This document shows, one piece after another, positions 17,681 to 33,193 of a stretch of 33,193 nt of DNA; within the stretch, counting starts at the first letter, position 1, and each line of letters begins with the position of its first letter. Origin of the DNA: Rubrivivax sp. Lineage in GTDB: Bacteria > Pseudomonadota > Gammaproteobacteria > Burkholderiales > Burkholderiaceae_C. A program made the position numbers and the translations under genes. The stretch spans positions 1 to 33,193 of the forward strand of contig JAEUPH010000102.1 in the NCBI GenBank assembly GCA_016790395.1. The letters run 5' to 3'. The notes under the pieces were generated by a model. The model saw only the letters and a program-made list of their open reading frames with translations, did no database searches and was not told where the DNA came from.

Positions 17681-17700
17681 GGTCTGGGTGCTCCAAATGA

Positions 17701-17729
17701 ATCAGCCCCGCCTTGTCGGCGGGGCTGAT
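17701..17729 (-). terminator. Perfect 12-bp hairpin between infB and rbfA
   Basis: Arms 17701-17712 and 17718-17729 are exactly complementary (ATCAGCCCCGCC against GGCGGGGCTGAT) around a 5-nt loop. In the direction of transcription the hairpin begins 24 nt after the infB stop and ends 20 nt before the rbfA start. It is followed only by TCATTT, not a uridine run, so it is at most a partial terminator. It could equally be an RNA-processing or stability element within the operon. Confidence 0.45.
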
Positions 17730-17753
17730 CGCTGGGGAAGCGTCGTGCCCGCC

Positions 17754-20648
17754 TTACAGCGTGCGTGCGACCTCCTTCACCTCGAAGAACTCGAGCTGGT
17801 CGCCTTCCTTGATGTCGTTGTAGTTCTTCAGCTTGATGCCGCACTCGAAGCCTTCCTTGACCTCGCGCACGTCGTCCTTCAGGCGCTTCACCGACTCGAT
17901 GTCGCCGGTGTAGATCACCACGTTGTCGCGCAACAGGCGGAAGCGCGCGTTGCGGATCACCTGGCCGGCGGTGATCATGCAGCCGGCCACGGTGCCGATC
18001 TTGCTGGCCACGAACACCGTGCGGATCTCGGCCGTGCCGATGACTTCCTCGCGCTGCTCCGGCGCCAGCATGCCGGACATCGCCGCCTTGATCTCGTCGA
18101 CCGCGTCGTAGATGATGTTGTAGTACTTGATCTCGACGCCGTTGCCTTCGGCCAGCTTGCGCGCACCGGCATCGGCCCGCGTGTTGAAGCCGATGATCAC
18201 GGCCTTCGAAGCGATGGCGAGGTTGACGTCGCTCTCCGTGATGCCACCGACGGCGGCATGCACGATCTGCACCTTCACCTCGGCCGTGCTGAGCTTGAGC
18301 AGGCTCTGTGCCAGCGCTTCCTGCGAACCCTGCACGTCGGCCTTGACGATCAGGCTCAGCGTCTGCGCCGCACCTTCGCCCATGTTCTCGAACATGCCTT
18401 CCAGCTTGGCGGCCTGGCGCTTGTTCAGCGTCACTTCGCGGTACTTGCCCTGGCGGAAGGTGGCGATCTCGCGCGCACGGCGCTCGTCGGCGATGACCAT
18501 GAACTCGTCACCGGCCTGCGGCACTTCGGTCAGACCCTGGATCTCCACCGGCAGCGAAGGCCCGGCCGATTCGATGGACTGGCCGTCCTCGTCCAGCATG
18601 GCGCGCACGCGGCCGTAGCTGCTGCCGGCCAGCACGACGTCGCCCTTCTTGAGCGTGCCGCTCTGCACCAGGATCGTGGCCACCGGACCGCGGCCCTTGT
18701 CCAGCTTGGCTTCGATCACCAGGCCCTTGGCAGCGGCTTCCTTCGGCGCCTTCAGCTCCAGCACTTCGGCCTGCAGCAGCACCTGCTCCAGCAGCGTGTC
18801 CATGCCTTGGCCGGTCTTGGCGGACACGGGCACGAAAGGAGAATCGCCGCCGAAGTCTTCAGGCACCACGCCCTCGGCCACCAGCTCGCTCTTCACGCGC
18901 TCGACGTTGGCATCGGGCTTGTCGATCTTGTTCATCGCCACCACGACCGGAACGCCGGCCGCCTTGGCGTGCGCGATGGCTTCCTTGGTCTGCGGCATCA
19001 CGCCGTCGTCGGCAGCCACCACCAGGATGACGATGTCGGTGGCCTGCGCGCCGCGCGCCCGCATCGCGGTGAACGCGGCGTGGCCCGGGGTGTCCAGGAA
19101 GGTGATGGTGCCGCGCGGCGTGTCCACGTGGTAGGCGCCGATGTGCTGCGTGATGCCGCCGGCTTCGCCCGCCGCCACGCGGGCGCGGCGGATGTAGTCC
19201 AGCAGCGAGGTCTTGCCATGGTCGACGTGGCCCATGACGGTGACCACCGGCGCACGCGGCAGCTGCTCGGCAGCCTCGTGCGCGGCGGTTTCCTCTTCGG
19301 TGAAGGCTTCCGGGTCGTCCAGCTTGGCGGCGAAGGCCTTGTGGCCCATTTCCTCGACGACGATCATCGCCGTCTCCTGGTCGAGCTGCTGGTTGATGGT
19401 GACCATCTGGCCCAGCTTCATCAGCTGCTTGATCACTTCCGAGGCCTTCACGCTCATCTTGTGAGCCAGGTCGGCGACGCTGATGGTCTCCGGGATGTGC
19501 ACTTCCTGGACCTGCGCCTCCGCCTGCGGTGCGAACTGAGAACCGCCGCCACCGTCGCGGTCGCCGCGGCGGGCGCCCCCGCGCGGCGCACGCCAGCCCG
19601 GCCGGCCACCGGCGGCCGTGTCGCCGCGCGTCTTCAGCGCGGCGCGCTTCTTGGCGGCGTCGTCGGCCCAGCTGGAAGACAGCTTTTCGCTCTTGACCTG
19701 CTTCTTGTCGCCCGGCTTGGCGGCACCTGCAGCAGCCGGGGCGCCCGGCTTGGCCGTGGGCTTGTGGATCGTGCCTTTGATGGCTTCCTTGGCGCCGGCG
19801 ACCGGTTCGGGCTTGGCTTCCTCGGGCTTCTTGGCGACCAGCACCTTCTTCGGTGCGGCCATCATCTCGCGGATCTTGCGCGCCTCGTCTTCCGCTGCCT
19901 TGCGGCGGCGGGCCAGGTCGTCGGCGCGCGCGGTGTCTTCGGCGGCCTTGTCGGCGGCCTTGACGATGCGCAGCGTCGGCTTGGCGGGCTCGGGGGGCTT
20001 GGCCGGGGGCTCCACGGCCTTGGGCGTCTCGGGCTCGGGCGTCGTGGCGGGTGCTGCCTGGGCCGAACTTGAATCGGCGGCCTTGGCCAGGGCTGCGGCC
20101 GCTTCGGCTGCCGCCTTGGCCGCTGCGGCGTCGGCCGCGGCACGGGCCGCCGCCTCGGCGGCCGCGGCTTCCGCGGCCTCGCGGGCTGCCTTCTCCGCAG
20201 CCTCGCGCTGGCGGCGTGCCTCGGCCAGTTCTTCCTCCTGCCGGCGCAGTGCCTCGGCCTGCGCACGGGCCTCTTCTTCGCGGCGCTGCAGTTCCAGCTC
20301 TTCCGCGCTGGGACCGGCCGGCTCCTCGACCGCCGGGCTGGCATCGTCACGCTTGACGAAGACGCGCTTCTTGCGCACTTCCACCTGGATGGTGCGGGCG
20401 CGGCCGCTGGCGTCGGCCTGCTTGATCTCGGTCGACGTCTTCTTGACGATCGTGATCTTCTTGCGCTCGGCGCCGGCCTGCGTGCCATGCGCGGTGCGCA
20501 GGAAGTCCAGCAACCGTTCCTTGTCGGCTTCGGTGAGCGCGTCGTCGGGCGACTGCTTGGTCACGCCGGCCGACTGCAGCTGCTCGATCAGTGCCGTCGT
20601 CGGGCGGCCGAGCTGCGCGGCGAACTGGGCGACTGTGGTCACGGCCAT
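17754..20648 (-). CDS. infB: Translation initiation factor IF-2
   Basis: GTPase that brings fMet-tRNA to the 30S subunit and joins the subunits. It has 964 residues, normal for betaproteobacteria. The N-terminal IF2_N domain ([20 protein letters not shown]) is followed by a long Ala/Glu/Arg-rich, probably helical linker (about 90-330) and a Gly/Arg patch ([18 protein letters not shown]). A second IF2_N-like domain ([20 protein letters not shown]) precedes the G domain: GHVDHGKT at 473-480, DTPGHAAF (G3) and NKIDKPDA (G4). The C-terminal domains end in [17 protein letters not shown], the conserved IF2 C2 signature. An internal start giving a shorter isoform, as in E. coli, was not identified. 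It lies 61 bp after nusA. Confidence 0.97.
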
Positions 20649-20709
20649 GGGATCGGTTTCCTCGGGTGTGCGGTGCGGGCGGGCTGAAGCGGGTTCGGAG
20701 TCTGCGGAA

Positions 20710-22188
20710 TCAGACGGTGAACCAGTGCTCGCGCGCCTTCATGATCAGTGTCTTGGCGGCGTCGTCGGCGATGCCGGTCAAGTCGGTCAGTTCGTCGACG
20801 GCCAGGTCGGCCAGGTCGTCACGCGTGTGGATGCCGCCACCGGCCAGCTTGGCGATGAGTTCGGGCGAGAGGCCTTCGAGGTCGCGCAGGTCCTGCGACA
20901 CCTCTTCCACCTGCTCTTCCTTCTCGATCTCCATCGTCAGAAGCGCGTCCTTGGCACGGGTGCGCAGCTCGTGCACGGTGTCCTCGTCGAAGGACTCGAT
21001 CTCCAGCATTTCCTGCAGCGGCACGTAGGCCACTTCTTCCAGGCTGGTGAAGCCCTCGGCGATGAGGATGTCGGCCACTTCGGCGTCGACGTCGAGCTTG
21101 TCGACGAACAGCTGGCGCACCGATTCGCTCTCGGTCGCCTGCTTGGCCTGCGATTCCTCGGCCGTCATGATGTTGATGCGCCAGCCGGTGAGTTCCGAGG
21201 CCAGGCGCACGTTCTGGCCACCGCGGCCGATGGCGATGGCGAGGTTCTCCTCGTCCACCACCACGTCCATCGCGTGGCGTTCCTCGTCGACGACGATGCT
21301 GGCCACGTTGGCCGGCGCCAGCGCGCCGATGACAAACTGCGCCGGATCGTCGGACCACAGCACGATGTCCACGCGCTCGCCGGCCAGCTCGTTGGTGACG
21401 GCATTGACGCGCGAGCCGCGCACGCCCACGCAGGTGCCGATGGGGTCGACCCGGCGGTCGTGCGAGACGACGGCGATCTTGGCGCGGCTGCCCGGGTCGC
21501 GGGCGCAGCTCTTGATCTCCAGGAGCCCCTGCTCGATCTCGGGCACTTCCTGTGCGAAGAGTTCCACCATGAACGGCGGCGCACTGCGCGACAGCATGAT
21601 CTGCGCGCCGCGCTGCGTGGGATCGACGCCCATGATCACCGCTCGCACGCGGTCGCCGGTGCGCAGGTTCTCCTTGGGGATCATCTCGTTGCGCTTCAGG
21701 CGCCCTTCGACGCGGCCGCTCTCGACGATGATGTCGCCCTTGTCCAGGCGCTTGACGGTACCGACGAAGATCTTCTCGCCGCGCGAAAGGAAGTCGCTCA
21801 GCAACTGCTCGCGCTCGGCGTCGCGGATCTTCTGCAGGATCACCTGCTTGGCAGCCTGGGCGCCGATGCGGCCGATCGGAACCGAGTCGATCGCCTCCTC
21901 GATGTAGTCGCCGTCCTCGATGTCGGCGATGCGGTCGCGGGCGTCGGAAAGCATCTCCTCGGCGTCGGCATTCTGCAGACCGGCGGCATCGGGCACGACC
22001 AGCCAGCGGCGGAAGGTCTCGTAGTCGCCGGTCTCGCGGTCGACGGCGACGCGGATGTCCACCTCGCCGCCGTGCAGCTTCTTGGTGGCCGAGGCCAGTG
22101 CCGCCTCGACGGCACCGAAGACGACGTCGCGGTCGACCGTCTTCTCGCGCGAGATCGCATCCACCAGCATCAGCATTTCGCGGTTCAT
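20710..22188 (-). CDS. nusA: Transcription termination/antitermination factor NusA
   Basis: Binds RNA polymerase and nascent RNA and affects pausing, intrinsic termination and antitermination. The 492 residues are close to E. coli length. The N-terminal polymerase-binding domain begins [20 protein letters not shown]. The S1 domain contains [20 protein letters not shown] (about 142-162). The KH domains include [20 protein letters not shown] and [16 protein letters not shown]. Two C-terminal acidic helix-hairpin-helix repeats lie in 360-490 ([20 protein letters not shown] and [20 protein letters not shown]). The ATG overlaps the rimP stop (ATGA). Since NusA influences termination hairpins, the terminator-like element in this operon's own leader may be a feedback point; this is inference. 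Confidence 0.97.
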
Positions 22189-22919
22189 CGATTCCTGCCT
22201 TCGTCTTTCCCTGCCGCGCCGGGGCCGGGCCGCCCCTTGAAATTCACCACCGGCACCAGCCGTGCCTCGCGCACTTCGTCGAGGGCGAATGACAGCACCT
22301 GTTCGGCGCGGCCGTCCATGAACGTGACCTGCCAGCGCCCCTCGACGCGACCCAGCGGGCCCTGGAAGTGCTTGCGGCCCTGCAACGGCAGCTTCAGCGT
22401 CAGGTCCACCGCCTGGCCGCAGAAGCGCTCGTAGTCGGCTTCGGTGCGCAGCGGCCGGTCCAGACCGGGCGACGAAACCTCCAGCCGCGCATAGTCCACG
22501 CCGTCGACTTCGAGCGCGTACTGCAACTGGCGCGTGACGGCCTCGCAGTCGTCGACCGTGATCGCATCGCCCTCGCTGGCGTAGGCGACGCCGGGGCGGC
22601 GATCGATGGTCACGCGCAGGAGCCCGCGCGGCGCCCGCTCGACGTCGACGAGGTCGTAGTGCAAACCCTCGACGGTGGCGCGGACGGCCGCACGCCAGTC
22701 GGCGGCGAGCGGGTGGTCGAAGGGCGCCGCGGCCACGGCCGGCGCGCCGGGCCTGCCAGCGGGCCGGGCGCGCGCAGGCGCGGGCCGGGCGGGCTTTGCG
22801 CCGCCCACGGCCGTTCCTGCCCTGCTGCTACCCGGGGTGCCGGAGTGCTTGTGCTTGCGCGTGGCACCCGTGGCCTTCAAGCCCATCAAGATCGTTGCTC
22901 GCCTTCGGTCCGCGGCCAT
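22185..22919 (-). CDS. rimP: Ribosome maturation factor RimP with N-terminal extension
   Basis: Assembly factor for the 30S subunit. The conserved core begins near residue 75 ([33 protein letters not shown]) and includes [21 protein letters not shown] and [21 protein letters not shown], the strongest RimP signature. With ATG 22919 (AGGA about 9 bp upstream) the protein has 244 residues, well above the usual 150-200. The extra about 65 N-terminal residues are Ala/Pro/Arg/Lys-rich and look disordered. ATG 22886 would give 233 residues and is joined to a small upstream ORF by TGATG. A GTG further up (23009) would run through the leader hairpin and is unlikely. First gene of the nusA-infB operon. 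Confidence 0.9.
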
Positions 22920-22993
22920 CGTGGCCGGTCCTGCCCGCCGTTCCGGGCGCCGGTCGAGCAAAAAAAATGGGCCGGAAGGTTCCGCCCACTCAT
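22886..22993 (-). other. Possible upstream ORF in the rimP leader
   Basis: A 35-codon frame starts at ATG 22993 (MSGRNLPAHFFCS...) and stops at TGA 22888-22886, which overlaps the second in-frame rimP ATG as TGATG. Its early codons cross the terminator-like hairpin and the T8 run, so ribosomes on it could influence that hairpin. The Shine-Dalgarno match is poor (GAAG only a few bases away), so translation is uncertain. Confidence 0.3.
22960..22987 (-). terminator. Intrinsic terminator in the rimP-nusA-infB leader (attenuator candidate)
   Basis: Read on the minus strand, a G+C-rich hairpin (GGGCGGAA pairing with TTCCGGCCC, with one bulged G and a very short loop) is followed by A and then eight T residues. 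It lies between a good promoter (-10 at 23028-23033) and the first gene of the operon. No gene upstream on the same strand needs terminating, so it most simply acts on the operon's own leader. A comparable terminator-bearing rimP leader is known from gammaproteobacteria. Confidence 0.7.
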
Positions 22994-23013
22994 CTTCGTG
23001 CCGAAGCACAACC
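22994..23013 (-). other. UUCG-capped hairpin in the rimP leader
   Basis: On the minus strand TTGTGC-TTCG-GCACGA forms a 6-bp stem (one G-U pair) closed by the very stable C(UUCG)G tetraloop. It directly precedes the terminator-like hairpin. Flanking it, TTCCGGG (23018-23012) is exactly complementary to CCCGGAA (22947-22941) beyond the terminator, so an alternative long-range fold enclosing both hairpins is possible. Confidence 0.5.
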
Positions 23014-23027
23014 CGGAAAAGCGCGCA

Positions 23028-23055
23028 TTATAGGCTGGCCACGAAGGGGCGGCAA
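23028..23055 (-). promoter_or_regulatory. Predicted sigma-70 promoter of rimP-nusA-infB operon
   Basis: A consensus -10 TATAAT is read on the minus strand at 23033-23028. A -35 candidate TTGCCG at 23055-23050 stands 16 bp away (4 of 6 consensus bases). Transcription would start near 23021, giving a leader of about 100 nt before rimP that contains both hairpins. Confidence 0.65.
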
Positions 23056-23180
23056 TATCGTCTTCGCCGCATGCCAGAATTCCCGGCCTGGCCGCGCGCC
23101 GGCGCGAGGGGGGACGCACCGCGGGCACCCTGTGCCGGTGCGGCCGCAACCCCAACCTCAGGACCCAGGAGACACCGAGC

Positions 23181-23981
23181 ATGGGCTTCCTCGCCGGCAA
23201 GCGGCTGCTGATCACGGGCGTGCTGTCCAACCGTTCCATCGCCTACGGCATCGCGCGCGCGGCCCGCCGCGAAGGGGCGGAGCTGGCCTTCAGCTACGTC
23301 GGCGAGCGCTTCAAGGAACGCATCAGCGAGTTCGCGCGCGAGTTCGATTCCTCGCTCGTCTTCGACTGCGACGTCGGCGACGACGCGCAGATCACGCGCC
23401 TGTTCGCCGACCTCGCGGGCCACTGGCCGCAGTTCGATGGCTTCGTGCACTCGATCGGCTTCGCGCCGCGCGAGGCGATCGCCGGCGACTTCCTGGAAGG
23501 GTTGTCGCGCGAGGGCTTCCGCATCGCGCACGACATCTCCGCCTACAGCTTCCCTGCCATGGCCAAGGCCGCCGCGCCGATGCTGCGCCCCGGCTCGGCG
23601 CTGCTCACCCTCACCTACCTCGGTTCGCTGCGCGCCATTCCGAACTACAACACGATGGGACTGGCCAAGGCCTCGCTGGAGGCCAGCGTGCGCTACCTGG
23701 CAGCGGCGATGGGCTCCAGGGGCGTGCGCGTCAACGGCCTGTCGGCCGGGCCGATCAAGACGCTCGCCGCGTCGGGCATCAAGGACTTCGGCAAGCTCCT
23801 GGGCGTGGTGGCGCAGAACTCGCCGCTGCGGCGCAACGTGACGATCGACGACGTGGGCAACGTCGCGGCGTTCCTGATGTCCGACCTCGCCGCCGGCATG
23901 ACGGCGGAGATCGTGTACGTCGACGGCGGCTTCAGCCAGGCGGTGCTCGGCGGCACCGACGCGGGCGTCACCGGCGGCTGA
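23181..23981 (+). CDS. fabI: Enoyl-[acyl-carrier-protein] reductase (NADH) FabI
   Basis: Catalyses the last step of each fatty-acid elongation cycle and is the classical triclosan target. It has 266 residues. The nucleotide-binding start is [28 protein letters not shown] carries Gly93. The catalytic set Tyr146 (LTYLGS), Tyr156 and Lys163 (YNTMGLAK) falls at the same numbers as in E. coli Fab[17 protein letters not shown] is the substrate-binding loop and VYVDGGFS the C-terminal signature. AGGAG lies about 10 bp before the ATG. Monocistronic, divergent from rimP across 261 bp and convergent with the decarboxylase gene 37 bp away. No clear promoter was recognised for it. Confidence 0.97.
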
Positions 23982-24018
23982 GCGGCCGCGCCCCACCGCC
24001 GCGGCGCCCGGGCCGGGC

Positions 24019-26283
24019 TCAGGCGCCCTTGACGCAGTCGACGTAGTAGCGGCGGCGCCCGTGCGCCTCGCCGTCGTCCTCGACGAGGCCGTGCACGTCG
24101 GTATCGAAGCCCGGGAAGGCGGCGTTGAACTCGCGCGTGAAGCGCAGGTAGTCGACGATCTTCTTGTTGAAACGCTCGCCGGGAATCAGCAGCGGGATGC
24201 CCGGCGGGTACGGCGTCAGCAGCGCCGTCGTGACGCGCCCTTCCAGCTCCTCGATGCCCACGCGCTCGGTCTCGCGGTGCGCGATGCGTGCGTAGGCGTC
24301 GCTCGGCTTCATCGCCGGGTGCAGGTCCGACAGGTACATGTCGGTGACCAGGCGCGCCACGTCGCCGCGCGCGTAGGTCTCGTGGATGGCCTGGCAAAGG
24401 TCGCGCAGGCCCATGCGCTCGTAGCGGGCGTGCGTGGCACAGAACTCGGGCAGGATTCGCCAGATCGGCGCGTTGCGGTCGTAGTCGTCCTTGAACTGCT
24501 GCAGCGCGGTGAGCAGCGTGTTCCAGCGGCCCTTGGTGATGCCGATCGTGAACATGATGAAGAACGAGTACAGGCCCGTCTTCTCGACGACGACACCGTG
24601 CTCGGCGAGGAACTTGGTCACCACGCTGGCCGGGATGCCGCTCTTGGCGAACTTGCCCGAGAGGTCCAGGCCCGGCGTCACGATCGTGCACTTGATCGGG
24701 TCGAGCATGTTGAAGCCTTCGGCCAGCGCCCCGAAGCCATGCCACTTGTCGCCGGCCTTGAGCATCCAGTCGCTCTGGCGGCCGATGCCCTCGGCCGCCA
24801 GGCCCGGCGGCCCCCAGACGGTGAACCACCAGTCGCGGCCGAAGTCCTTGTCGACCTTGCGCATGGCGCGGCGGAAGTCCAGCGACTCGGCGATGCTCTC
24901 CTCGACGAGCGCCTTGCCGCCGGGCGCCTCCATCATCGCCGCGGCGACATCGCACGAAGCGATGATCGCGTACTGCGGCGACGTGCTCGTGTGCATCAGG
25001 TAGGCCTCGTTGAAGAGGTGCCGGTCGAGCTTGCGGTTCGCCGCGTCCTGCACCAGCACCTGGCTGGCCTGGCTCAGGCCGGCGAGCAGCTTGTGCGTGC
25101 TCTGCGTCGCCCAGACCATCTGGTCCTTCGGCCGCGGGCGCTTGCGCCCCATGGCGTGGAACTGGCCGTAGAACTCGTGGAAGGCGGCGTGCGGCAGCCA
25201 GGCCTCGTCGAAATGCAGGTTGTCGACGTAGCCGTCGAGTGCGTGCTTGATGGTTTCGGTGTTGTAGAGCACGCCGTCGTAGGTGCTCTGCGTCAGGGTC
25301 AGGATGCGCGGCTTGACCTTCTTGGCGTCCAGGCCCGCCAGCAGCGGGTTGGCGGCGATCTTGCGCTGGATGCTCTCGAGCGAGAACTCGCTTTGCGGAA
25401 TCGGGCCGATGATGCCGTGGTGGTTGCGCGTGGGCGTCAGGAACACCGGCACGGCGCCGGTCATGATGATCGAGTGCAGGATGCTCTTGTGGCAGTTGCG
25501 GTCGACCACCACCACGTCGCCCGGCGCCACCGTGTGGTGCCACACCATCTTGTTGCTGGTGCTGGTGCCGTTGGTGACGAAGAAGCAGTGGTCGGCGTTG
25601 AAGATGCGCGCCGCGTTGCGCTCGCTCTGCGCCACCGGGCCGCTGTGGTCGAGCAGCTGCCCGAGTTCCTCCACCGCGTTGCAGACGTCGGCGCGCAGCA
25701 TGTTCTCGCCGAAGAACTGGTGGAACATCTGCCCCACCGGGCTCTTCAGGAACGCCACGCCGCCGCTGTGCCCCGGGCAGTGCCACGAGTACGAGCCGTC
25801 CTGCGCGTAGTCCATCAGCGCCTTGAAGAACGGCGGCGCCAGGCCGTCGAGGTAGCTGCGCGCCTCGCGGATGATGTGCCGGGCCACGAACTCCGGCGTG
25901 TCCTCGAACATGTGGATGAAGCCGTGCAGCTCGCGCAGCACATCGTTGGGCAGGTGCTGGCTGGTGCGCGTCTCGCCGTAGACGTAGATCGGGATGTCGG
26001 CGTTCTTCCAGCGGATCTCCTCGATGAACTTGCGCAGGTTCACCACCGCCGGGTCCAGTTCGGGGCCGGCCGTGAACTCGTTGTCGTCGATGCTGAGGAT
26101 GAAGGCGCTGGCGCGGCTTTGCTGCTGCGCGAACTGCGACAGGTCGCCGTAGCTGGTGGCGCCGACGACCTCGAAGCCCTCCTTCTCGATGGCCGCCGCC
26201 AGCGCCCGGATGCCGAAGCCGGAGGCGTTCTCCGAGCGGAAGTCCTCGTCGATGATGACGATGGGAAAGTGGAAGCGCAGCAT
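24019..26283 (-). CDS. PLP-dependent Arg/Lys/Orn decarboxylase, AdiA-like
   Basis: A fold-type I basic amino acid decarboxylase that yields a polyamine precursor (agmatine, cadaverine or putrescine) and consumes a proton. It has 754 residues, about the size of AdiA. Order: an N-terminal response-regulator-like wing domain (IVIIDEDFRSENASGFGIRAL), the core starting at YSWHCPGHSGGVAFLKSPVG, VTNGTSTSNKMVWHH, HFDEAWLPHAAF (PLP aspartate) and WATQSTHKLLAGLSQ with the Schiff-base Lys398. The C-terminal domain holds PYPPGIPLLIPGERF. The residues around the lysine resemble arginine decarboxylase most, but the substrate cannot be fixed from sequence alone. The start is fixed by the wing domain. A possible -10 TACACT is at 26340-26335. 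Confidence 0.92.
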   Translation of the reverse strand: MLRFHFPIVIIDEDFRSENASGFGIRALAAAIEKEGFEVVGATSYGDLSQFAQQQSRASAFILSIDDNEFTAGPELDPAVVNLRKFIEEIRWKNADIPIYVYGETRTSQHLPNDVLRELHGFIHMFEDTPEFVARHIIREARSYLDGLAPPFFKALMDYAQDGSYSWHCPGHSGGVAFLKSPVGQMFHQFFGENMLRADVCNAVEELGQLLDHSGPVAQSERNAARIFNADHCFFVTNGTSTSNKMVWHHTVAPGDVVVVDRNCHKSILHSIIMTGAVPVFLTPTRNHHGIIGPIPQSEFSLESIQRKIAANPLLAGLDAKKVKPRILTLTQSTYDGVLYNTETIKHALDGYVDNLHFDEAWLPHAAFHEFYGQFHAMGRKRPRPKDQMVWATQSTHKLLAGLSQASQVLVQDAANRKLDRHLFNEAYLMHTSTSPQYAIIASCDVAAAMMEAPGGKALVEESIAESLDFRRAMRKVDKDFGRDWWFTVWGPPGLAAEGIGRQSDWMLKAGDKWHGFGALAEGFNMLDPIKCTIVTPGLDLSGKFAKSGIPASVVTKFLAEHGVVVEKTGLYSFFIMFTIGITKGRWNTLLTALQQFKDDYDRNAPIWRILPEFCATHARYERMGLRDLCQAIHETYARGDVARLVTDMYLSDLHPAMKPSDAYARIAHRETERVGIEELEGRVTTALLTPYPPGIPLLIPGERFNKKIVDYLRFTREFNAAFPGFDTDVHGLVEDDGEAHGRRRYYVDCVKGA

Positions 26284-26469
26284 GGGCGGGTTCGGTTGCG
26301 TGAAGCCTCGGCAGGGGGCCGGCGAAGGGCCTGAAGTGTAGGCGGCGCTGCGTGCCGCGGTCGGCCGCGGCAGGCCCTGGCAGGTGCATGCCGGCAGCGC
26401 CGGCTGCTCGCTACACTGCGGCGCGTTGGAGGCGGCGCGCACCGGCGCGCCCGAGGCAAGAGGGAAGCG
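26284..26469. promoter_or_regulatory. Divergent promoter region, decarboxylase versus nfeD-like genes
   Basis: A 186-bp non-coding gap. TACACT occurs as a -10 candidate on the plus strand (26412-26417, towards nfeD) and again on the minus strand (26340-26335, towards the decarboxylase). Neither has a good -35 at the expected distance. GAGGCAAGAGGGAAGCG just before 26470 provides a purine-rich ribosome-binding stretch for the nfeD-like gene. Confidence 0.35.
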
Positions 26470-26913
26470 ATGGACACGAACCTGTCGACGATGTGGTGGG
26501 TCGCCGGCGGCGTGCTGGTGGCGGCGGAGCTCGCCACCGGCACCTTCTACCTGCTGATGCTGGCCGTGGGCTGCGCCGCCGGGGCACTGGCCGCGCACGC
26601 GGGCCTCGGCCTCTCGGCACAGATCGTCGCCGGCGCGCTGGTGGGCGCTGCCGCCACCGCCGGCTGGCACCTGAAGCGCGCCCGTCATCCGCGCAGCGCG
26701 CCGGCCGAGAGCAACCGCGACGTGAACCTCGACATCGGGCAGACGGTGCTGGTGCGCGCCTGGGGTGCCGACGGCTCGACGCATGTCAGCTACCGCGGCG
26801 CCAGCTGGAGCGCGGCCTTCGCCGGCGACGGCACGCCCGCGCCGGGGCCGCACGCCATCGTCGCCGTGCGCGGCAACCAGCTCATGCTGGCGCCGCAGGC
26901 AAAGACGCACTGA
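26470..26913 (+). CDS. NfeD-like membrane protein
   Basis: A 147-residue short-form NfeD protein. Two to three hydrophobic segments cover 8-65 (MWWVAGGVLVAAELATGTFY, LLMLAVGCAAGALAA, IVAGALVGAAATAGW). A soluble C-terminal beta domain of OB type follows (DIGQTVLVRAWGADGSTHVSYRG at about 88-110, ending AIVAVRGNQLML). It partners the band-7 gene 36 bp downstream, the standard NfeD/stomatin pairing. The pair is thought to organise membrane microdomains and protein quality control. The long-form serine-protease domain of NfeD is absent. Confidence 0.9.
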   Translation: MDTNLSTMWWVAGGVLVAAELATGTFYLLMLAVGCAAGALAAHAGLGLSAQIVAGALVGAAATAGWHLKRARHPRSAPAESNRDVNLDIGQTVLVRAWGADGSTHVSYRGASWSAAFAGDGTPAPGPHAIVAVRGNQLMLAPQAKTH

Positions 26914-26949
26914 GACCGACCGCAGCCGCCAACCGTGGAAAGCCCCGCC

Positions 26950-27897
26950 ATGACCGTCGCCCTGATCCTGCTCGTCATCGCCATCATCTTCGTCGTGCGC
27001 ACGTTCAAGATCGTGCCGCAGCAGCACGCCTGGGTGGTGGAGCGCCTGGGCCGTTACGACCGCACGCTGACGCCGGGCCTGAAGTTCGTGATCCCGTTCA
27101 TCGAGCGCGTGGCCTACAAGCACTCGCTGAAGGAAGTGCCGCTGGACGTGCCGAGCCAGGTGTGCATCACGCGCGACAACACGCAGCTCCAGGTCGACGG
27201 CATCCTGTACTACCAGATCACCGACCCGATGCGCGCGAGCTACGGGTCGTCGAACTACATCGTGGCCATCACGCAGCTTGCGCAGACCACTCTGCGCAGC
27301 GTGATCGGCAAGATGGAACTGGACAAGACCTTCGAGGAGCGTGACCACATCAACGCCAGCGTCGTCAGCGCGCTCGACGAGGCGGCGCTGAACTGGGGCG
27401 TCAAGGTGCTGCGCTACGAGATCAAGGACCTCACGCCGCCGGCGGCCATCTTGCACAGCATGCAGGCGCAGATCACCGCCGAGCGCGAGAAGCGGGCGCT
27501 GATCGCCGCCTCCGAGGGCAAGCGCCAGGAACAGATCAACCTCGCCGAGGGCCAGCGCGCCGCCTTCATTGCCAAGAGCGAAGGCGAGAAGCAGTCCGAG
27601 ATCAACCTGGCGCAAGGCGAAGCGGCGGCGATCGTCGCCGTGGCCGAAGCCACCGCCGACGCGATCCGCAAGGTGGCCGCCGCCATCCAGAGCCCGGGCG
27701 GCGAGCAGGCCGTGCAGCTCAAGGTGGCCGAGAAGGCGGTGGAGGCGTACGGCAACCTGGCCCGCACGAACAACACGATGATCGTGCCGAACAACGTGGG
27801 CGAGGTCGCCGGGCTCATCGGCACGGCGATGGCGCTCATCAAGCAGAAGCCGCCCGGCGCTGCCGGCGCGCCGCCCGCGCCGCACGGCGGGCGCTGA
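26950..27897 (+). CDS. Band-7/SPFH (stomatin/paraslipin-like) membrane protein
   Basis: A 315-residue member of the SPFH superfamily. A single N-terminal transmembrane segment (VALILLVIAIIFVVRTF) precedes the SPFH domain: VPQQHAWVVERLGRYDRTL, GLKFVIPFIERVAYKHSL, VDGILYYQITDP and TTLRSVIGKMELDKTFEERD. A coiled-coil Ala/Glu/Lys-rich region (about 170-250, AEREKRALIAASEGKRQEQI) and a Pro/Gly-rich tail complete it. It closely follows the QmcA/paraslipin layout. Start choice: ATG 26950 with GGAAA upstream; a GTG at 26935 would add five residues. It works with the NfeD-like protein encoded before it, probably as an oligomeric membrane scaffold. Confidence 0.92.
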   Translation: MTVALILLVIAIIFVVRTFKIVPQQHAWVVERLGRYDRTLTPGLKFVIPFIERVAYKHSLKEVPLDVPSQVCITRDNTQLQVDGILYYQITDPMRASYGSSNYIVAITQLAQTTLRSVIGKMELDKTFEERDHINASVVSALDEAALNWGVKVLRYEIKDLTPPAAILHSMQAQITAEREKRALIAASEGKRQEQINLAEGQRAAFIAKSEGEKQSEINLAQGEAAAIVAVAEATADAIRKVAAAIQSPGGEQAVQLKVAEKAVEAYGNLARTNNTMIVPNNVGEVAGLIGTAMALIKQKPPGAAGAPPAPHGGR

Positions 27898-27909
27898 CAA
27901 GCGCGGCCT

Positions 27910-27924
27910 GCCGCCCGGGGCGGC
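27910..27924 (+). terminator. GC hairpin after the band-7 gene
   Basis: GCCGCC and GGCGGC form a 6-bp stem around a CGG loop, 13 bp after the stop codon. No uridine run follows, so a Rho-independent role is doubtful. Confidence 0.25.
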
Positions 27925-27960
27925 GGCGCCAGCGACGGCGCTGCTGCGGCGGCGCCTGCA

Positions 27961-27966
27961 TAGAAT
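27961..27966 (+). promoter_or_regulatory. Probable -10 element of the tRNA-Ser promoter
   Basis: TAGAAT (5 of 6 bases of TATAAT) ends 17 bp before the tRNA 5' end, a typical distance for a short tRNA leader. No good -35 is visible in the GC-rich DNA upstream. Confidence 0.45.
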
Positions 27967-27983
27967 CGCGCCCGCATCCCCGC

Positions 27984-28074
27984 GGAGGGATGGATGAGTG
28001 GTTTAAGTCGCACGCCTGGAAAGCGTGTGGGGGTTAACAGCCCCCCGCGGGTTCGAATCCCGCTCCCTCCGCCA
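27984..28074 (+). tRNA. tRNA-Ser (anticodon GGA)
   Basis: A complete 91-nt cloverleaf. Acceptor GGAGGGA (27984-27990) pairs with TCCCTCC, then the discriminator G and encoded CCA (28072-28074). The anticodon stem CACGC/GCGTG encloses the loop CTGGAAA with anticodon GGA at 28018-28020, which reads UCC and UCU. A long GC-rich variable arm marks it as a class II serine tRNA. The T arm is GCGGG-TTCGAAT-CCCGC. It stands alone between a plus-strand operon and minus-strand genes. I saw no integrase or attachment-site duplication next to it. Confidence 0.97.
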
Positions 28075-28089
28075 AAGACGCCTGCAGCC

Positions 28090-28104
28090 GCGGCCTTCGG
28101 CCGC
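28090..28104 (+). terminator. Hairpin after tRNA-Ser
   Basis: GCGGCC-TTC-GGCCGC forms a 6-bp GC stem with a triloop, 15 nt after the tRNA end and before the convergent small gene. The following bases (TCAGGTTGG) are not a uridine run, so this is a weak terminator candidate, possibly used from both sides. Confidence 0.35.
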
Positions 28105-28131
28105 TCAGGTTGGCCGCTCGGGCCGCCCGAC

Positions 28132-28440
28132 TCACGGCGCCTTGCGCCGGCGGGCCTTCGGTTCGAGAGGGTCCGGTCCTGCGCTGCGTGCAGCGCGTTC
28201 CGCTGGCGTCGTTGCCGCCGGCCCCTGCACCAGCTCTTGGCGCCGCTGCGCATCGAGCCCCGGAGTGGCGCGCATGTCGGTGTCGACGAGGCCGGCGTCG
28301 ATGTCGTGCTTGGCCTGCTCGACGATCGGGTTCGCGTGTGGCGTCACCGCATCCTTGGCCTGGTCGCGCTCGTGCGGAAGCAGCGGCGCCGAGCGAACGG
28401 GCCTGTTCTTCGCGCTGGATTGAGCGGGCTTGGCGGGCAT
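28132..28440 (-). CDS. Small conserved hypothetical protein
   Basis: A 102-residue hydrophilic protein without signal peptide or membrane segment. The middle reads SAPLLPHERDQAKDAVTPHA and then IVEQAKHDIDAGLVDTDMRA. The LPHERD core followed by a helical segment and a D-T-D turn recalls a small family of unknown function common in Burkholderiales. Ends are basic and Pro/Ala-rich, suggesting disorder. AGG lies about 8 bp before the ATG. It follows another small gene by 32 bp on the same strand and faces the tRNA. Function unknown. Coding status rests on recalled family resemblance. Confidence 0.65.
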   Translation of the reverse strand: MPAKPAQSSAKNRPVRSAPLLPHERDQAKDAVTPHANPIVEQAKHDIDAGLVDTDMRATPGLDAQRRQELVQGPAATTPAERAARSAGPDPLEPKARRRKAP

Positions 28441-28472
28441 CGGGTCGCCTGGGTGTGGACCGCTGTAGAGGA

Positions 28473-28835
28473 CTACCCGGCAGACCGGCCCGCGCAGGCG
28501 CGAGCTGCGGCGCCGTCGTGGCCGTCGAGTCCGGTTTCGGATTCGCAAGCCGCATGACGGTTGCAGCGCGCCCAGGCCGCGCAGACGGCCTCGCGCGCTT
28601 CGCACCACGCCAGGCGCGAGGCGCCTTTCACTTCTTCCCACTCCGAGCCCAGGCGGCCGAGCACGTCGTCCAGCAGCGTGTCCTCGCGGTAGTGCGCCCG
28701 GGCGAGCCGGAACGCCGGTGCGTAGTCGGCGAAGGAAAGGCCGGTGATGTAGAAGGGTTGCAGCGGCAGCGAGCAGGCCCAGAACGCGTCGTCGTCGGGC
28801 ACCGTTGTCCTCGGGGGGGTTGTCAGTCCGTCCAT
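28473..28835 (-). CDS. Small conserved hypothetical protein
   Basis: About 120 residues. The pattern DDDAFW near the start, then PFYITGLSFADYAPAFRL, DDVLGRLGSEWEEVKGASRL and AWCEAREAVCAAWAR resembles a small Burkholderiales family (D-D-A-Y-W ... Y-x-P-A-Y-R ... W-x-x-x-x-G-x-S-x-L-x-W ... A-A-W). I know of no function for it. Compared with the family core, several tyrosines and glycines are replaced and cysteines are frequent, including a C-terminal tail with GRSAG. Start uncertain: ATG 28835 is reported; a GTG 36 bp later has a better Shine-Dalgarno (GAGGA); ATG 28868 is also in frame. Soluble, no signal peptide. Probably co-transcribed with the next small gene. Confidence 0.6.
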   Translation of the reverse strand: MDGLTTPPRTTVPDDDAFWACSLPLQPFYITGLSFADYAPAFRLARAHYREDTLLDDVLGRLGSEWEEVKGASRLAWCEAREAVCAAWARCNRHAACESETGLDGHDGAAARACAGRSAG

Positions 28836-28882
28836 GCCCGCGGAGTCTGGCGTGCACGCCTGGCGCACGCTGTAGGACTCGA

Positions 28883-28901
28883 TGCCGACACGCTGTCGGC
28901 A
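28883..28901 (-). terminator. 8-bp perfect hairpin downstream of lpdA
   Basis: TGCCGACA and TGTCGGCA form an 8-bp stem around a 3-nt loop, starting about 40 nt after the lpdA stop in the direction of transcription. No uridine run follows. It may terminate or stabilise the pyruvate dehydrogenase transcript. Confidence 0.35.
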
Positions 28902-28940
28902 CCGGACGGCGGACCGCGGAACGGCCGGGCGCAGCCCCGC

Positions 28941-30800
28941 TCAGCGCCGCACCGGCGGCAGGTCGGTGCAGGTGCCGTGCGCCGCTTCGGCCGCCATGCC
29001 GATGCTCTCGCCGAGCGTGGGGTGCGGGTGGATCGTCTTGCCGATGTCCACCTCGTCGGCGCCCATCTCGATGGCCAGCGCGATCTCGCCGATCATGTCG
29101 CCGGCGTGCGTGCCGACGATGCCGCCGCCGACGATGCGGTGCGTCTGTTCGTCGAACAGCAGCTTGGTGAACCCTTCGTCGCGGCCGTTGGCGATGGCTC
29201 GGCCGCTCGCGGTCCAGGGGAACAACCCTTTCCTGACCTTGACGCCGCGGGCCTTCGCCTCGTCTTCGGTCAGGCCGACCCAGGCGACCTCGGGGTCGGT
29301 GTAGGCGACGCTGGGGATCACGCGGGCGTCGAACTGCGCCCGGCGCAAGCCCTCGTCGCCGTTGATGTCGCCTGCGGCCACCTCGGCGGCCACGTGCGCT
29401 TCGTGCACCGCCTTGTGCGCCAGCATCGGCTGGCCGACGATGTCGCCGATGGCGAAGATGTGCGGCACGTTGGTGCGCATCTGAACGTCCACCGGGATGA
29501 AGCCGCGCTCGCCGACGACGATGCCGGCCTTCTCGGCGCCGATCTTCCTGCCGTTGGGGCTGCGGCCCACCGCCTGCAGCACGAGGTCGTACAGGCCCTC
29601 GCTCTTCACCGCGCCGTCGACGCTCTCGAAGCGCACGCGGATGCCCTCCGTCGTGGCCTCGGCAGCGACGGTCTTCGTCTTCAGCCAGATGTTGTCGAAG
29701 CGCGGTGCGTTGAGCTTCTGCCACACCTTGACGAGGTCGCGGTCGGCGCCTTGCATCAGGCCGTCGAGCATCTCCACCACGTCCAGCCGCGCGCCGAGCG
29801 TGCTGTACACGGTGCCCATCTCGAGGCCGATGATGCCGCCGCCGACGACGAGCATCCGCTGGGGCAGTGCGCGCAGTTCGAGCGCGCCGGTGCTGTCGAC
29901 GATGCGCGGGTCGTCGGGCATGAACGGCAGCCGCACCGCCTGCGAACCGGCGGCGATGATGCAGCGGCCGAACTTGATCGTCTGCGTCTTGCCGGTCTTG
30001 TCCTGGCCGCTGCCGCCGGTCTCCTCGACGCTGAGGTGATGCGGGTCGCTGAAGCTGCCATAGCCGCGCACGACGGTGACCTTGCGCATCTTCGCCATCG
30101 CGGCCAGGCCGCCGGTGAGCTTGCCGACGACCTTGTTCTTGTGCGCCAGCAGCTTGCCCGGCTCGATCACCGGCGCTCCGTAGGTGACGCCGAGACCGGC
30201 GAAGTGCTTCACCTCGTCCATCACCGCGGCCACGTGCAGCAGCGCCTTGCTCGGGATGCAGCCGACGTTCAGGCACACGCCGCCCAGCGTGGCGTAGCGC
30301 TCGACCAGAACCGTCCTCAGGCCGAGGTCGGCGGCGCGGAAGGCGGCCGAGTAGCCGCCGGGACCGCCGCCGAGGACGAGCATGTCGCACTCGAGGTCGG
30401 CGCCGCCGGCGTAGGTCGAAGGCACCGGAGCGGGGGCCTTCGCGGCCGGGGACGCGGCCGGGGACGCGGCCGGGGACGCGACCGTGGACGCGGCCGGGGA
30501 CGCGGCCGGGGACGCGACAGCAGCCGCAGTTGCCGGCGTGGCCGCAGCTGCGGCCGGCCCGCCGGCCGCCTCGAGCATCAGCAGCACCGAGCCCTCGCTC
30601 ACCTTGTCGCCGAGCGCGACCTTCATCTCCTTGACGACACCCGCGTGCGACGAGGGGATCTCCATCGAGGCCTTGTCGCTCTCCACGGTGACGAGGCTCT
30701 GCTCGGCCTTGACGGTGTCGCCCGGCTTGACGAGCAGCTCGATGACGGCCACGTCCTTGAAGTCGCCGATGTCGGGCACCTTGATCTCGATGGCGGCCAT
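28941..30800 (-). CDS. lpdA: Dihydrolipoamide dehydrogenase (E3) with N-terminal lipoyl domain
   Basis: Flavoprotein that reoxidises dihydrolipoamide in the pyruvate dehydrogenase complex, passing electrons to NAD+. It has 619 residues, about 145 more than a plain E3, because a lipoyl domain (1-78, lipoyl-lysine Lys43 in ESDKASM) is fused in front. An Ala/Pro/Ser linker (80-130) is encoded by a 12-bp tandem repeat. The core has the FAD motif [14 protein letters not shown], the redox disulfide [13 protein letters not shown], the NAD motif [28 protein letters not shown] and the active-site base in [14 protein letters not shown] precedes the ATG. Fusion of lipoyl domain and E3 is usual in this lineage. 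It follows the BPH gene by 18 bp. Confidence 0.97.
30442..30513. repeat. 12-bp tandem repeat (six units) in lpdA linker
   Basis: Six consecutive 12-bp units of GCGGCCGGGGAC run from 30442 to 30513; the fourth is a variant (GCGACCGTGGAC). On the coding strand each unit encodes four residues of the Ala-Ser-Pro-Ala type, building the flexible linker between the lipoyl and E3 domains. The unit length is a multiple of three, so copy-number change keeps the frame. Confidence 0.9.
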
Positions 30801-30818
30801 GTCGATGGTCTCTTCCGT

Positions 30819-31391
30819 TCAGGTCTTCAGCGTCAGCGTGTGCAGCCGCACCGGGGCGGCCGAGCTGGTGTCGAACTCGCAGCCGGCGCGCACGCCGGCA
30901 TCGGCCACCTCGCGGGCACTGCGCGCGCGAGCCCAGGTGGCGTACATCGCGCCCAGCGCGTAGCGGCGGCCCGAGCCGATGGCCCAGAAGCGCTCGAACT
31001 CGAACACCTCGCGGTAGCTCTCGACGCCGAAGACGCCGTGCGCGTTGGCCACCAGGATCGAGATCTGGCTGCTCTCGTAGGGATCGGAATCGTGCTCCTT
31101 CGTGTTCAGGAAGAAGCGCTCCTTGAGCTGCGGGTGCAACGCGCGGAAGGTCTCGAAGATCTCGGCGCGCGAGGCCAGGCGCAACTGCTCCTTCGGCAGC
31201 CCCGCCAGCGCCTGCTGCAGCACCGGGATGTGCGCCGTGCTGCCCACCGCGCCGATCCAGTGCCCGCGCACGTTGAACAGCTTCGTGTTCGCCTCGTAGC
31301 CCGGCGGCAGCCGCATCTCGCCGAAGGTGATCAGCGAGTCCGAGGCGATGGCCAGCGTGCCGCCCTTGCGCGCGACGACGACGGTGCTCAT
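30819..31391 (-). CDS. BPH-type proteasome homologue (HslV-related Ntn hydrolase)
   Basis: A 190-residue threonine/serine-type Ntn peptidase. It opens MSTVVVARKGGTLAIASDS, which aligns with HslV MTTIVSVRRNGHVVIAGDG. After Met removal the nucleophile would be Ser1 (Thr in HslV), with Asp17 and a lysine (Lys36 in NTKLF, shifted by about three residues) completing the site. AVGSTAH and AIGSGRRYALGAMYA match the core strands and the GSG turn. Size and layout fit the described betaproteobacterial proteasome homologue (BPH), a double-ring descendant of HslV; some BPH subfamilies are known to use Ser. No HslU-type ATPase is near. GGGAG lies 6 bp before the ATG. It sits between the E2 and E3 genes of pyruvate dehydrogenase. 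The substrate is unknown. Confidence 0.85.
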   Translation of the reverse strand: MSTVVVARKGGTLAIASDSLITFGEMRLPPGYEANTKLFNVRGHWIGAVGSTAHIPVLQQALAGLPKEQLRLASRAEIFETFRALHPQLKERFFLNTKEHDSDPYESSQISILVANAHGVFGVESYREVFEFERFWAIGSGRRYALGAMYATWARARSAREVADAGVRAGCEFDTSSAAPVRLHTLTLKT

Positions 31392-31480
31392 CGGCCGCTC
31401 CCGGCGTGCCGCGGCGCTGCGCAGCGGCAGGGCCGGCCGCGGGCCGCTTCGGCAGCGGCCTCGCCCGCAAGCGGCGCCAT
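31388..31480 (-). other. 30-codon ORF bridging aceF and the BPH gene
   Basis: The ATG at 31480 overlaps the aceF stop as TGATG and its stop overlaps the BPH start as ATGA, so it fills the gap exactly. The product (MAPLAGEAAAEAARGRPCRC...) is Ala/Arg-rich with no recognisable domain. It may be a real microprotein, a coupling device that delivers ribosomes to the BPH start, or chance in GC-rich DNA. Confidence 0.3.
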
Positions 31481-33168
31481 CACAGCAGCACCCGGCGGAA
31501 GTCGCCGAGGATCTGCGCCAGGTAGGTGTTGAAGCGCGCCGCCGCCGCGCCGTCGATGACGCGATGGTCCCACGACAGCGACAGCGGCAGGATCAGCCGG
31601 GGCGCGAACTGCCTGCCGTCCCAGCGCGGCTCGGTGGTGCTGCGGCACACGCCGAGGATCGAGACTTCGGGGGCGTTGATGATCGGCGTGAAATAGCGCC
31701 CGCCGATGCCGCCCAGCGAACTGATGCTGAAGCAGCCGCCACTCATGTCCGCCGGGCCGAGCTTGCCGTCGCGTGCCTTCTTCGCGAGCTCGCTCATCTC
31801 CTGGCTGATGGCGAGCACGCCCTTCTTGTCGGCGTCCTTGATCACCGGCACGACGAGGCCGTTGGGGGTGTCGGCGGCGAAGCCGATGTGGAAGTACTTC
31901 TTGTAGACGAGCTGCTCGCCGTCCAGGCTGGCGTTGAATTCCGGGAACTTCTTCAGCGCCGCGACCGTGGCCTTGATGAGGAAAGCGAGCATCGTGACCT
32001 TGATGCCGCTCTTCTCGTTCTCCTTGTTGAGCTGGACGCGGAAGGCTTCGAGCTCGGTGATGTCGGCGTCGTCGTGGTTGGTGACGTGCGGGATCAGCAC
32101 CCAGTTGCGGTGCAGGTTGGCGCCACTGATCTTCTTGATGCGGCTGAGGTCCTTGCGCTCGATCTCGCCGAACTTGGTGAAGTCCACCTGCGGCCAGGGC
32201 AGCAGGCCGGGGAAGCTGCCGCCGGCCGCGGCGGTCGAGGCGGCGGGCGCCTTGGCCTTCTGCGCTGCCGTCTGCACGGCACCGGCCATCACGCCCTTGA
32301 CGAAGCCCTGCACGTCGGCTTGGGTGATGCGGCCCTTGGGGCCGGTGCCCGCCACTTCCGCCAACGGCACGCCGAGCTCGCGGGCCAGCTTGCGGATCGT
32401 CGGCGAGGCGTGCGGCAGCACGCCCTTGGCCGCGGTGGGGTCGTGCGCGGGCAGGCTGGCGGCGGCCGACCCGCCGCCGCGCTCGGCCAGCGCAGCCATC
32501 GGCGCCACGGCCGGCGCCACGGCCGACGCTGCGGGCGATGCTGCCGCGGCCGGTGCGGTGGCTGGGGCCGGTGCGGTCGAAGCACCGGCGGCGCCCTCCA
32601 GCACCAGCACCGGCGATCCCTTGTTCACCTTGTCGCCGATCTTGACCAGCACCTGCTTCACGACGCCGGCGTGCGACGACGGGATCTCCATCGAAGCCTT
32701 GTCGCTCTCGACGGTGATGAGGCTCTGCTCCACCTTCACCGTGTCGCCGGGCTTGACGAAGAGCTCGATCACCGCGACGTCGGCGAAGTCGCCGATGTCG
32801 GGCACCACCACGGTGACCGGCCCGGCGGCCGCCGATGGGGCGGCAGCGGGCGCTGCCGCCGGGGTCGGCGCCGCCGCGGCGGGCGTGGTCGGTGCCGCGG
32901 CCTTCGCGGCCGGCGCCGGCGCACCGGCGCCTTCGGCGTCGAGCCGGAGCAGCAGCGTGCCCTGGTTCACCTTGTCGCCCATCTTCACGACGAGCTCGCG
33001 CACCACGCCGGCGTGCGAGCTCGGAATCTCCATCGAGGCCTTGTCGCTCTCCACCGTCACGAGCGACTGCTCGGCAGCCACCTTGTCGCCGGCCTTCACC
33101 AGCACCTCGATGACCGCGACATCCTTGAAGTCCCCGATATCGGGCACCACCACATCGACCAGAGCCAT
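31480..33168 (-). CDS. aceF: Pyruvate dehydrogenase E2, dihydrolipoamide acetyltransferase
   Basis: Forms the core of the pyruvate dehydrogenase complex and transfers acetyl from lipoyl arms to CoA. It has 562 residues. Domain order: lipoyl 1 (1-79, Lys43 in ESDKASM), Ala/Pro linker, lipoyl 2 (about 118-195, Lys157), a second Ala/Pro/Val linker, and the peripheral-subunit-binding domain (LPHASPTIRKLARELGVPLA then GTGPKGRITQADVQ). The catalytic domain has the C-terminal LSLSWDHRVIDGAAAARF holding the active-site His and Asp. GGAG stands 8 bp before the ATG. Only 25 bp remain upstream in the window; the E1 gene (aceE) is expected there. Translationally linked downstream through the small bridging ORF. 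Confidence 0.97.
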   Translation of the reverse strand: MALVDVVVPDIGDFKDVAVIEVLVKAGDKVAAEQSLVTVESDKASMEIPSSHAGVVRELVVKMGDKVNQGTLLLRLDAEGAGAPAPAAKAAAPTTPAAAAPTPAAAPAAAPSAAAGPVTVVVPDIGDFADVAVIELFVKPGDTVKVEQSLITVESDKASMEIPSSHAGVVKQVLVKIGDKVNKGSPVLVLEGAAGASTAPAPATAPAAAASPAASAVAPAVAPMAALAERGGGSAAASLPAHDPTAAKGVLPHASPTIRKLARELGVPLAEVAGTGPKGRITQADVQGFVKGVMAGAVQTAAQKAKAPAASTAAAGGSFPGLLPWPQVDFTKFGEIERKDLSRIKKISGANLHRNWVLIPHVTNHDDADITELEAFRVQLNKENEKSGIKVTMLAFLIKATVAALKKFPEFNASLDGEQLVYKKYFHIGFAADTPNGLVVPVIKDADKKGVLAISQEMSELAKKARDGKLGPADMSGGCFSISSLGGIGGRYFTPIINAPEVSILGVCRSTTEPRWDGRQFAPRLILPLSLSWDHRVIDGAAAARFNTYLAQILGDFRRVLL

Positions 33169-33193
33169 GCGTCCGTCTCCGCTTTCTTCGGTT

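Follow-up and report, generated by a model that had tools for sequence, protein, structure and literature searches.

The gene analysed here raises the question of how an enzyme of the proteasome type can run on serine, and what such an enzyme does among the genes of the pyruvate dehydrogenase complex (PDC). It lies in a window (the whole stretch of DNA that was analysed, 33,193 nucleotides from a Rubrivivax draft genome) between the genes for E2 and E3, and its product is a betaproteobacterial proteasome homologue (BPH) with Ser1 as its predicted nucleophile. Our reading, to which we would give a probability of roughly 0.6, is that the BPH made from this operon is a working serine-type enzyme in which Val48 compensates for the change of Thr1 to Ser1, and not a decaying one. 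The threonine of proteasomes has been explained so far by its methyl group, which keeps the hydroxyl in position. A lineage found in nature that lost the methyl and, together with it, enlarged the packing residue would offer a direct and cheap test of that explanation.

Family and locus

In a phmmer search of the PDB the best matches of the window protein were two solved BPHs, 5OVU (E 2.6e-60, 206.5 bits) and 5OVS (E 2.1e-32, 115.6 bits); matches to HslV were weak (best E 0.016, 18.2 bits). The curated HslV profile TIGR03692 gave 19.9 bits, below its cut-off of 157.75, and the Pfam Proteasome profile PF00227 gave 14.4 bits, below its cut-off of 22.4, so that a plain Pfam scan would miss this BPH. 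When a single-chain AlphaFold2 model (pLDDT 88.1, built from a 17-row alignment) was submitted to Foldseek, PDB ranks 1-6 were all BPH chains; no structure of a Ser1 BPH was seen among the PDB matches of either search. The protein is a BPH, closer over its full length to the solved BPHs than to HslV or the proteasome beta subunits, and the assignment to this family in the preliminary description is upheld, as is its place inside the proteasome/HslV superfamily by both sequence and fold. The likeness to HslV at the N-terminus, on which that description had drawn, is there but weak, and the match that counts is the end-to-end one to BPHs.

Residues are numbered here from Met 0, the reading frame beginning ATG AGC ACC (Met-Ser-Thr). 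As expected of a BPH there is no propeptide and Met is followed directly by Ser; the Thr1 nucleophile of the betaproteobacterial prototype is replaced by Ser1. Translation and alignment agree with the earlier statement that Ser stands in place of Thr1 while Asp17 and a Lys are kept, and Lys36, Gly49 and Ser139 are present together with Asp17 (Table 1). Comparisons with relatives draw on 262 BPH loci that were read for their neighbourhood, some of them repeating one genome, and which order-level matches entered only in part. Leaving out duplicate proteins and loci shorter than 165 aa, counted from the start, gave 229 distinct BPHs, in every one of which residue 1 is Ser or Thr. Genomes of the window's coded family f1 with only split BPH pieces (G085, G140, G262 and G275) are outside this count.

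Table 1. Features of the BPH gene and its neighbours in the window
Feature	Position	Strand	Detail and basis
aceF, PDC E2 with two lipoyl domains	31480..33168	-	TIGR01348 733.8 bits, cut-off 552.1; Pfam
Shine-Dalgarno-like GGGAG	31398..31402	-	7-11 nt ahead of BPH ATG; sequence
BPH gene, Ser1-type	30819..31391	-	190 aa/190 codons; ATG at 31391, stop at 30819; translation, phmmer, AlphaFold2/Foldseek
Ser1 codon AGC, predicted N-terminal nucleophile once Met is cleaved off	31386..31388	-	Sequence
Asp17 codon	31338..31340	-	Alignment
Lys36 codon	31281..31283	-	Lys37 in T. denitrificans BPH, Lys33 in proteasome; Lys in 229/229 distinct BPHs
Val48 codon GTG	31245..31247	-	Precedes oxyanion-hole Gly49; taken as proteasome Ala46 equivalent; alignment counts
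Pore-loop region with lower net acidic charge than Thr1 relatives	31075..31112	-	Net acidic charge, residues 89-109
Ser139 codon	30972..30974	-	Alignment
lpdA, PDC E3 with N-terminal lipoyl domain	28941..30800	-	TIGR01350 462.5 bits, cut-off 408.8; Pfam

Coordinates and TIGR profiles confirm the order aceF, BPH, lpdA on one strand, with spacers of 88 bp (E2 to BPH) and 18 bp (BPH to E3), and the Shine-Dalgarno sequence that had been noted before the BPH gene is also there. A simple consensus scan of 28500-33193 found no promoter- or terminator-like sites. In one relative (L026) the E1 gene (aceE; TIGR00759) lies 48 bp upstream of E2, a position that in the window would fall past the contig end. 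The stop of E2 overlaps the start of BPH by 1-4 nt in 29 of the 109 distinct PDC-linked loci measured, and where the BPH gene stays its packing is tight. The co-expression of aceF, BPH and lpdA that had been proposed is likely, although the window locus itself lacks the overlap, and the PDC operon is the probable source of the window BPH.

The window's contig (C224) belongs to a draft genome (G000) of 3.93 Mb in 353 contigs, 75% complete and with 4.6% contamination. A second E2-BPH-E3 set is found on its contig C241 (L004, L311), with a BPH that is 70% identical and also has Ser1 and Val48. Since each of the other 11 BPH-bearing genomes of the genus has one such set, the bin may mix two organisms. 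HslV co-occurs with BPH in this genome, its gene being split in the assembly into pieces on contigs C41 and C54 (L299 and L300; profile positions 51-171 and 1-97), the latter reaching the end of its contig. Beyond lpdA, the window encodes at 14563-28900 a Band-7/SPFH protein (plus strand), an Orn/Lys/Arg decarboxylase, then rimP-nusA-infB and typA/BipA. A tandem pair of prolyl-oligopeptidase family (S9) proteins at 8476-12503 (plus strand) adjoins a putative esterase and a wax ester synthase/DGAT gene.

Serine at residue 1 and valine at residue 48

Of the distinct BPHs, 32 have Ser1 and the other 197 have Thr1, and among the 110 that are PDC-linked the figures are 23 and 87. Titled records place the PDC-linked Ser1 proteins in Rubrivivax, Leptothrix and MAGs named only Burkholderiaceae, Burkholderiales, beta proteobacterium or Pseudomonadota; nine BPH-bearing genomes of the window's coded genus have Ser1 and three have Thr1. 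The nine Ser1 rows without PDC linkage are from the window's order (L022, L243, L245, L246, L270) and from outside it (L072, L100, L101, L179). The serine codon is AGC or AGT in all 23 PDC-linked Ser1 rows and TCN in seven of the nine others (not L022 and L270). On the main tree, built without residue 1 from 87 rows thinned from the 229, the PDC-linked Ser1 BPHs are one clade (16 rows, support 100/100) nested among Thr1 BPHs inside the PDC clade (33 rows, 100/94). An AU test rejected a single clade of all 25 Ser1 rows (p-AU 5e-78), and with it a single origin of Ser1 in BPHs, as well as a single clade of the 17 PDC-linked Thr1 rows (p-AU 0.003); the labels were already known when the groups compared were defined.

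In the account of Fuchs et al. 2017 (PMC5777263) Ser1 is found in all BPHs outside Betaproteobacteria and Thr1 is the prototype. A betaproteobacterial Ser1 group is not mentioned in the sections of its main text that were consulted. The picture of Ser1 outside and Thr1 inside Betaproteobacteria is thus refined. Two BPH matches each were seen in three genomes of the same order and coded family f30 (G387, G425 and G604); those of G387 are a Ser1 protein with a TCN codon (L246) and a Thr1 protein (L256). It is possible that in such two-type genomes labour is divided between the types.

The residue that precedes the oxyanion Gly differs between Ser1 and Thr1 proteins. Position 48 is Val in 23/23 PDC-linked Ser1 BPHs; their PDC-linked Thr1 relatives have Ala (70), Ser (14) or Cys (3). 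Over all 229 proteins the Ser1 rows have Val (28), Ile (1) or Thr (3, in L022, L100 and L270) and the Thr1 rows Ala (88), Ser (61), Thr (32) or Cys (16), so that Val or Ile occurs in 0/197 Thr1 BPHs. In this column 29 of the 32 Ser1 rows carry letters foreign to the Thr1 rows, and all other columns have fewer. Five extra rows outside the 229 have Ser/Val (L303, L304, L308), Ser/Ala (L307) and Thr/Thr (L310); another, L309, was left out for want of a readable ORF by the pattern used. L307, from the whole-genome sample around G1024, is the sole Ser1 row seen without a beta-branched residue 48. In the quick tree rooted on HslV it is the earliest-branching BPH.

That tree allowed the changes at the two positions to be ordered by parsimony. 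On thinned rows (trees of 87 or 95 rows, the long branches L103 and L180 left out) and with a root that is itself a very long branch, six changes of residue 1 were counted, two of which share a branch with a Val48 change, in opposite directions: Val48 is lost where a 58-row group gains Thr1, and gained where the 16-row PDC group gains Ser1. The remaining four came with no change of class at 48. These are the HslV-to-BPH branch (Ala/Ser/Cys), a 21-row group gaining Thr1 on Thr48, and the single rows L022 and L270, which gained Ser1 with Thr already at 48. In addition, Val48 arose twice on branches that were already Ser1. The starred branches yield three independent pairs, too few for a sign test to reach significance, and the link between the residues rests on the pattern and on published structure and not on independent-pair statistics.

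According to Huber et al. 2016 (PMC4792962), the methyl of proteasome Thr1 is packed against Ala46, Lys33 and Thr3. In the yeast beta5 T1S mutant the hydroxyl of Ser1 turns by 60 degrees and occupies the site of the methyl, with activity lowered by 40-45% on one substrate. Ala46 directly precedes the oxyanion Gly47 (PMC4792962); residue 48, which likewise precedes Gly49, is taken as the Ala46 equivalent. A larger residue at this position is what would be expected if the gap of the lost methyl had to be filled, and Ser1 with Val48 may be read as a compensated serine active site. In the open-access literature searched we found no published link of proteasome residue 46 with Ser1. We would put forward, tentatively and at somewhat less than even odds, a wider proposal: that BPHs hold a natural answer to why proteasomes need threonine, in the form of Ser1 paired with a bulkier beta-branched residue where the proteasome has Ala46. 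The pairing would have disappeared with the return of Thr1 and come back, together with Ser1, in the Rubrivivax-type clade that is PDC-linked, and it could act as a portable second-site rescue for serine in the proteasome fold.

The enzyme may be pictured as follows. By likeness to the two solved BPHs, an HslV-derived Ntn-hydrolase is expected, with a double heptameric ring and its active sites inside. Removal of Met would expose Ser1, which Lys36 and Asp17 would activate with the support of Gly49, as oxyanion hole, and Ser139. In the Rubrivivax-type lineage, where Thr1 gave way to Ser1 and residue 48 became Val, the larger Val48 side chain would fill the space of the lost methyl and keep the Ser hydroxyl aimed at the substrate. 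The two exchanges suggest a way for an enzyme of the proteasome type to work with serine.

It could be argued instead that Ser1 reflects slightly degenerate drift, a weaker enzyme that is tolerated because its gene can be dispensed with, residue 48 having changed alongside by chance. The lowered activity of the Thr1Ser proteasome is in keeping with this, as are the frequent absence of BPH described below, the small number of independent switches, and the fact that most changes of residue 1 left residue 48 as it was. Val48 could indeed be a passenger, since other residues also changed with Ser1 in the clade (Glu24, Gln59, Glu123, Arg142 and Thr174). Residue 123, Tyr in 86/87 PDC-linked Thr1 proteins, is Glu in 23/23 with Ser1, and residue 142 is Arg in all 23. 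Residue 47, which we take to be the proteasome-45 position at the floor of the S1 pocket, goes from Met (57/87) to Ala (18/23). The pore loop, which in BPHs is typically elongated and highly acidic, has kept its length and lost about two net negative charges: net acidic charge over residues 89-109 averages 2.1 in the PDC-linked Ser1 group, against 4.0 in the PDC-linked Thr1 group, and is 2 in the window protein. Against drift stand the joint changes of residues 1 and 48 on two branches and the pattern S1/V3/D17/K36/V48/G49/S139, identical in 23/23 rows. Purifying selection is also evident, dN/dS being 0.09-0.24 between the window BPH and the six nearest of 13 relatives compared and rising to 0.52 between members of the clade that are further apart. 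Because the changes are fixed or nearly so and dN/dS is low among near relatives, changed specificity under selection fits better than decay, and drift seems to us unlikely. The change at residue 47 and the less acidic pore loop suggest what such an altered specificity might involve.

Pyruvate dehydrogenase linkage and possible function

The PDC neighbourhood is not peculiar to the window genome, as the neighbour table called for by the preliminary description makes clear. E2 and/or E3 lie beside BPH in 136/262 loci, in seven coded families of the order: all 72 loci read of the window's own family f1, some repeating a genome, and all 14 read of f3, f8, f10, f20, f21 and f32. On the 87-row tree the PDC context is a single change, hence a single origin, and once gained the location was not seen to change within its clade. 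A 1994 paper on the pyruvate dehydrogenase of Alcaligenes eutrophus is said to have placed an ORF3 of unassigned role between pdhB and pdhL. The location cannot be claimed as new, since section 6 of PMC5777263 already describes it in Cupriavidus metallidurans.

In whole-genome samples BPH was found in 12/25 genomes of the genus, 19/41 relatives in all, 62/250 genomes of the family, 152/399 of the order and 12/398 of the phylum sample. Of the 13 genus-mates without it, three are at most 85% complete. An E3 match was obtained in 11 of the 13, with E2 readable upstream in nine and cut off by contig ends in two, and in 9/9 readable cases E2 and E3 are adjacent with 14-107 bp between aligned ends, too little for a BPH. 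On an E3 tree with 17 BPH-less rows, six of them from other families, the BPH-less label requires 14 changes, at least seven of which are forced by well-supported branches. From this, and from the closed-up E2-E3 junctions, it follows that the gene is easily lost or gained. Three Thr1-bearing rows (L048, L061 and L122) fall within the mainly Ser1 group of the E3 tree, so that BPH and E3 have partly different histories and may have been exchanged within the family; horizontal transfer of BPH is not needed to explain its tree placement. An adaptation of PDC to BPH was considered and rejected, E2 length and lipoyl-domain number showing no visible difference between BPH-bearing and BPH-less genomes in the 22/24 loci that were readable (17 with BPH, 5/7 without). 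A single lipoyl domain was counted in 3/22 E2 proteins (two with BPH, one without), a motif count that depends on the chosen start, and two were counted in 4/5 readable E2 proteins of BPH-less genus-mates, as in most BPH-bearing genomes.

These observations bear on what the enzyme does. No unfoldase is known for BPHs, so its reach is probably limited to unfolded or disordered chains and peptides. The preliminary description had suggested turnover or quality control of PDC subunits, in which the barrel would degrade unassembled, damaged or disordered parts such as the Ala/Pro-rich linkers present in the window's E2. The single origin and steady keeping of the PDC context, the overlapping genes and these linkers would all suit such a role. 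It is nevertheless unsupported: the pull-downs with C. metallidurans BPH reported in section 6 of PMC5777263 contained no PDC subunits and carbonylation patterns were unchanged. BPH-less genus-mates, some of them from incomplete genomes, keep E2 beside E3 with the usual lipoyl domains, E2 does not track BPH in length or domain number, and 126/262 BPH loci have other neighbours. We consider this role unlikely.

The same 126 loci, the repeated absence of BPH with close E2-E3 joins and the three operon contexts given in section 6 of PMC5777263 (argG, PDC and Hsp33) would rather suit a general constitutive peptidase for oxidised or unfolded peptides cell-wide, to which the PDC operon merely gives steady expression. 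The location is more stable within its clade than a mere host for expression would predict, the in vivo stress tests in that section were, like carbonylation, without effect, and no substrate is known. A general peptidase is a real possibility, if one that we would hold at a little under even.

The T. denitrificans and C. metallidurans BPHs, both Thr1, were inert in the assays described in section 8 of PMC5777263, so that catalytic activity is a prediction for any BPH; no later experimental work on BPHs was recognised in the open-access literature searched. This inertness could point to a specialised Ntn-enzyme, a connectase-like ligase or an amidase acting for example on lipoyl-lysine, or to a non-catalytic scaffold. 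Connectase demonstrates that the fold can carry a ligase (PMC8665760), and PDC bears lipoyl amides. On the other side, inhibitor adducts formed on the published BPHs, and epoxomicin labels Thr1 of a homologue (PMC5777263, section 8); this label and the fixed active-site residues of the clade argue against a scaffold. Taken together we regard these alternatives as improbable, and a working serine-type hydrolase remains our preferred reading. The Ser1 BPHs of Rubrivivax- and Leptothrix-type bacteria are offered as material for the question of BPH function.

Comparison with known systems

The C. metallidurans BPH (Rmet_1198, PDB 5OVU) shares with the window protein full-length homology, the PDC operon and the catalytic Asp/Lys/Gly/Ser set. 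It differs in having Thr1, Ala at 48 and a more acidic pore loop, where the window protein has Ser1 and Val48 (PMC5777263 and phmmer alignment). What is new here is the active site, that is the Ser1 clade inside the PDC-linked BPHs and the co-changed residue 48, the latter absent from the preliminary description. The T. denitrificans BPH (PDB 5OVS, 5OVT) has the same family and fold, but with Thr1, Thr at 48 and an argG operon (PMC5777263 and phmmer alignment).

HslV, the proposed ancestor in the same source (PMC5777263), has the proteasome fold, Asp17, the Lys and the oxyanion Gly in common with the window protein. Unlike it, HslV works with the HslU unfoldase (PMC5777263); in 16/16 readable ORFs of 18 loci it has Thr1 and an Ala preceding the oxyanion Gly, and the sequence match between the two proteins is very weak.

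The other Ser1 BPHs, which are found outside Betaproteobacteria (PMC5777263; among the loci read, L072, L100, L101, L179, L303, L304, L307 and L308) and in five loci of the window's order, share Ser1, and many share Val or Ile at 48 (L072, L101, L179, L243, L245, L246, L303, L304 and L308), whereas others have Thr48 (L022, L100, L270) or Ala48 (L307). They differ further in lacking PDC linkage in the nine whose context was read, in their separate positions in the tree, and in their TCN codons, from which L022 and L270 are again the exceptions.
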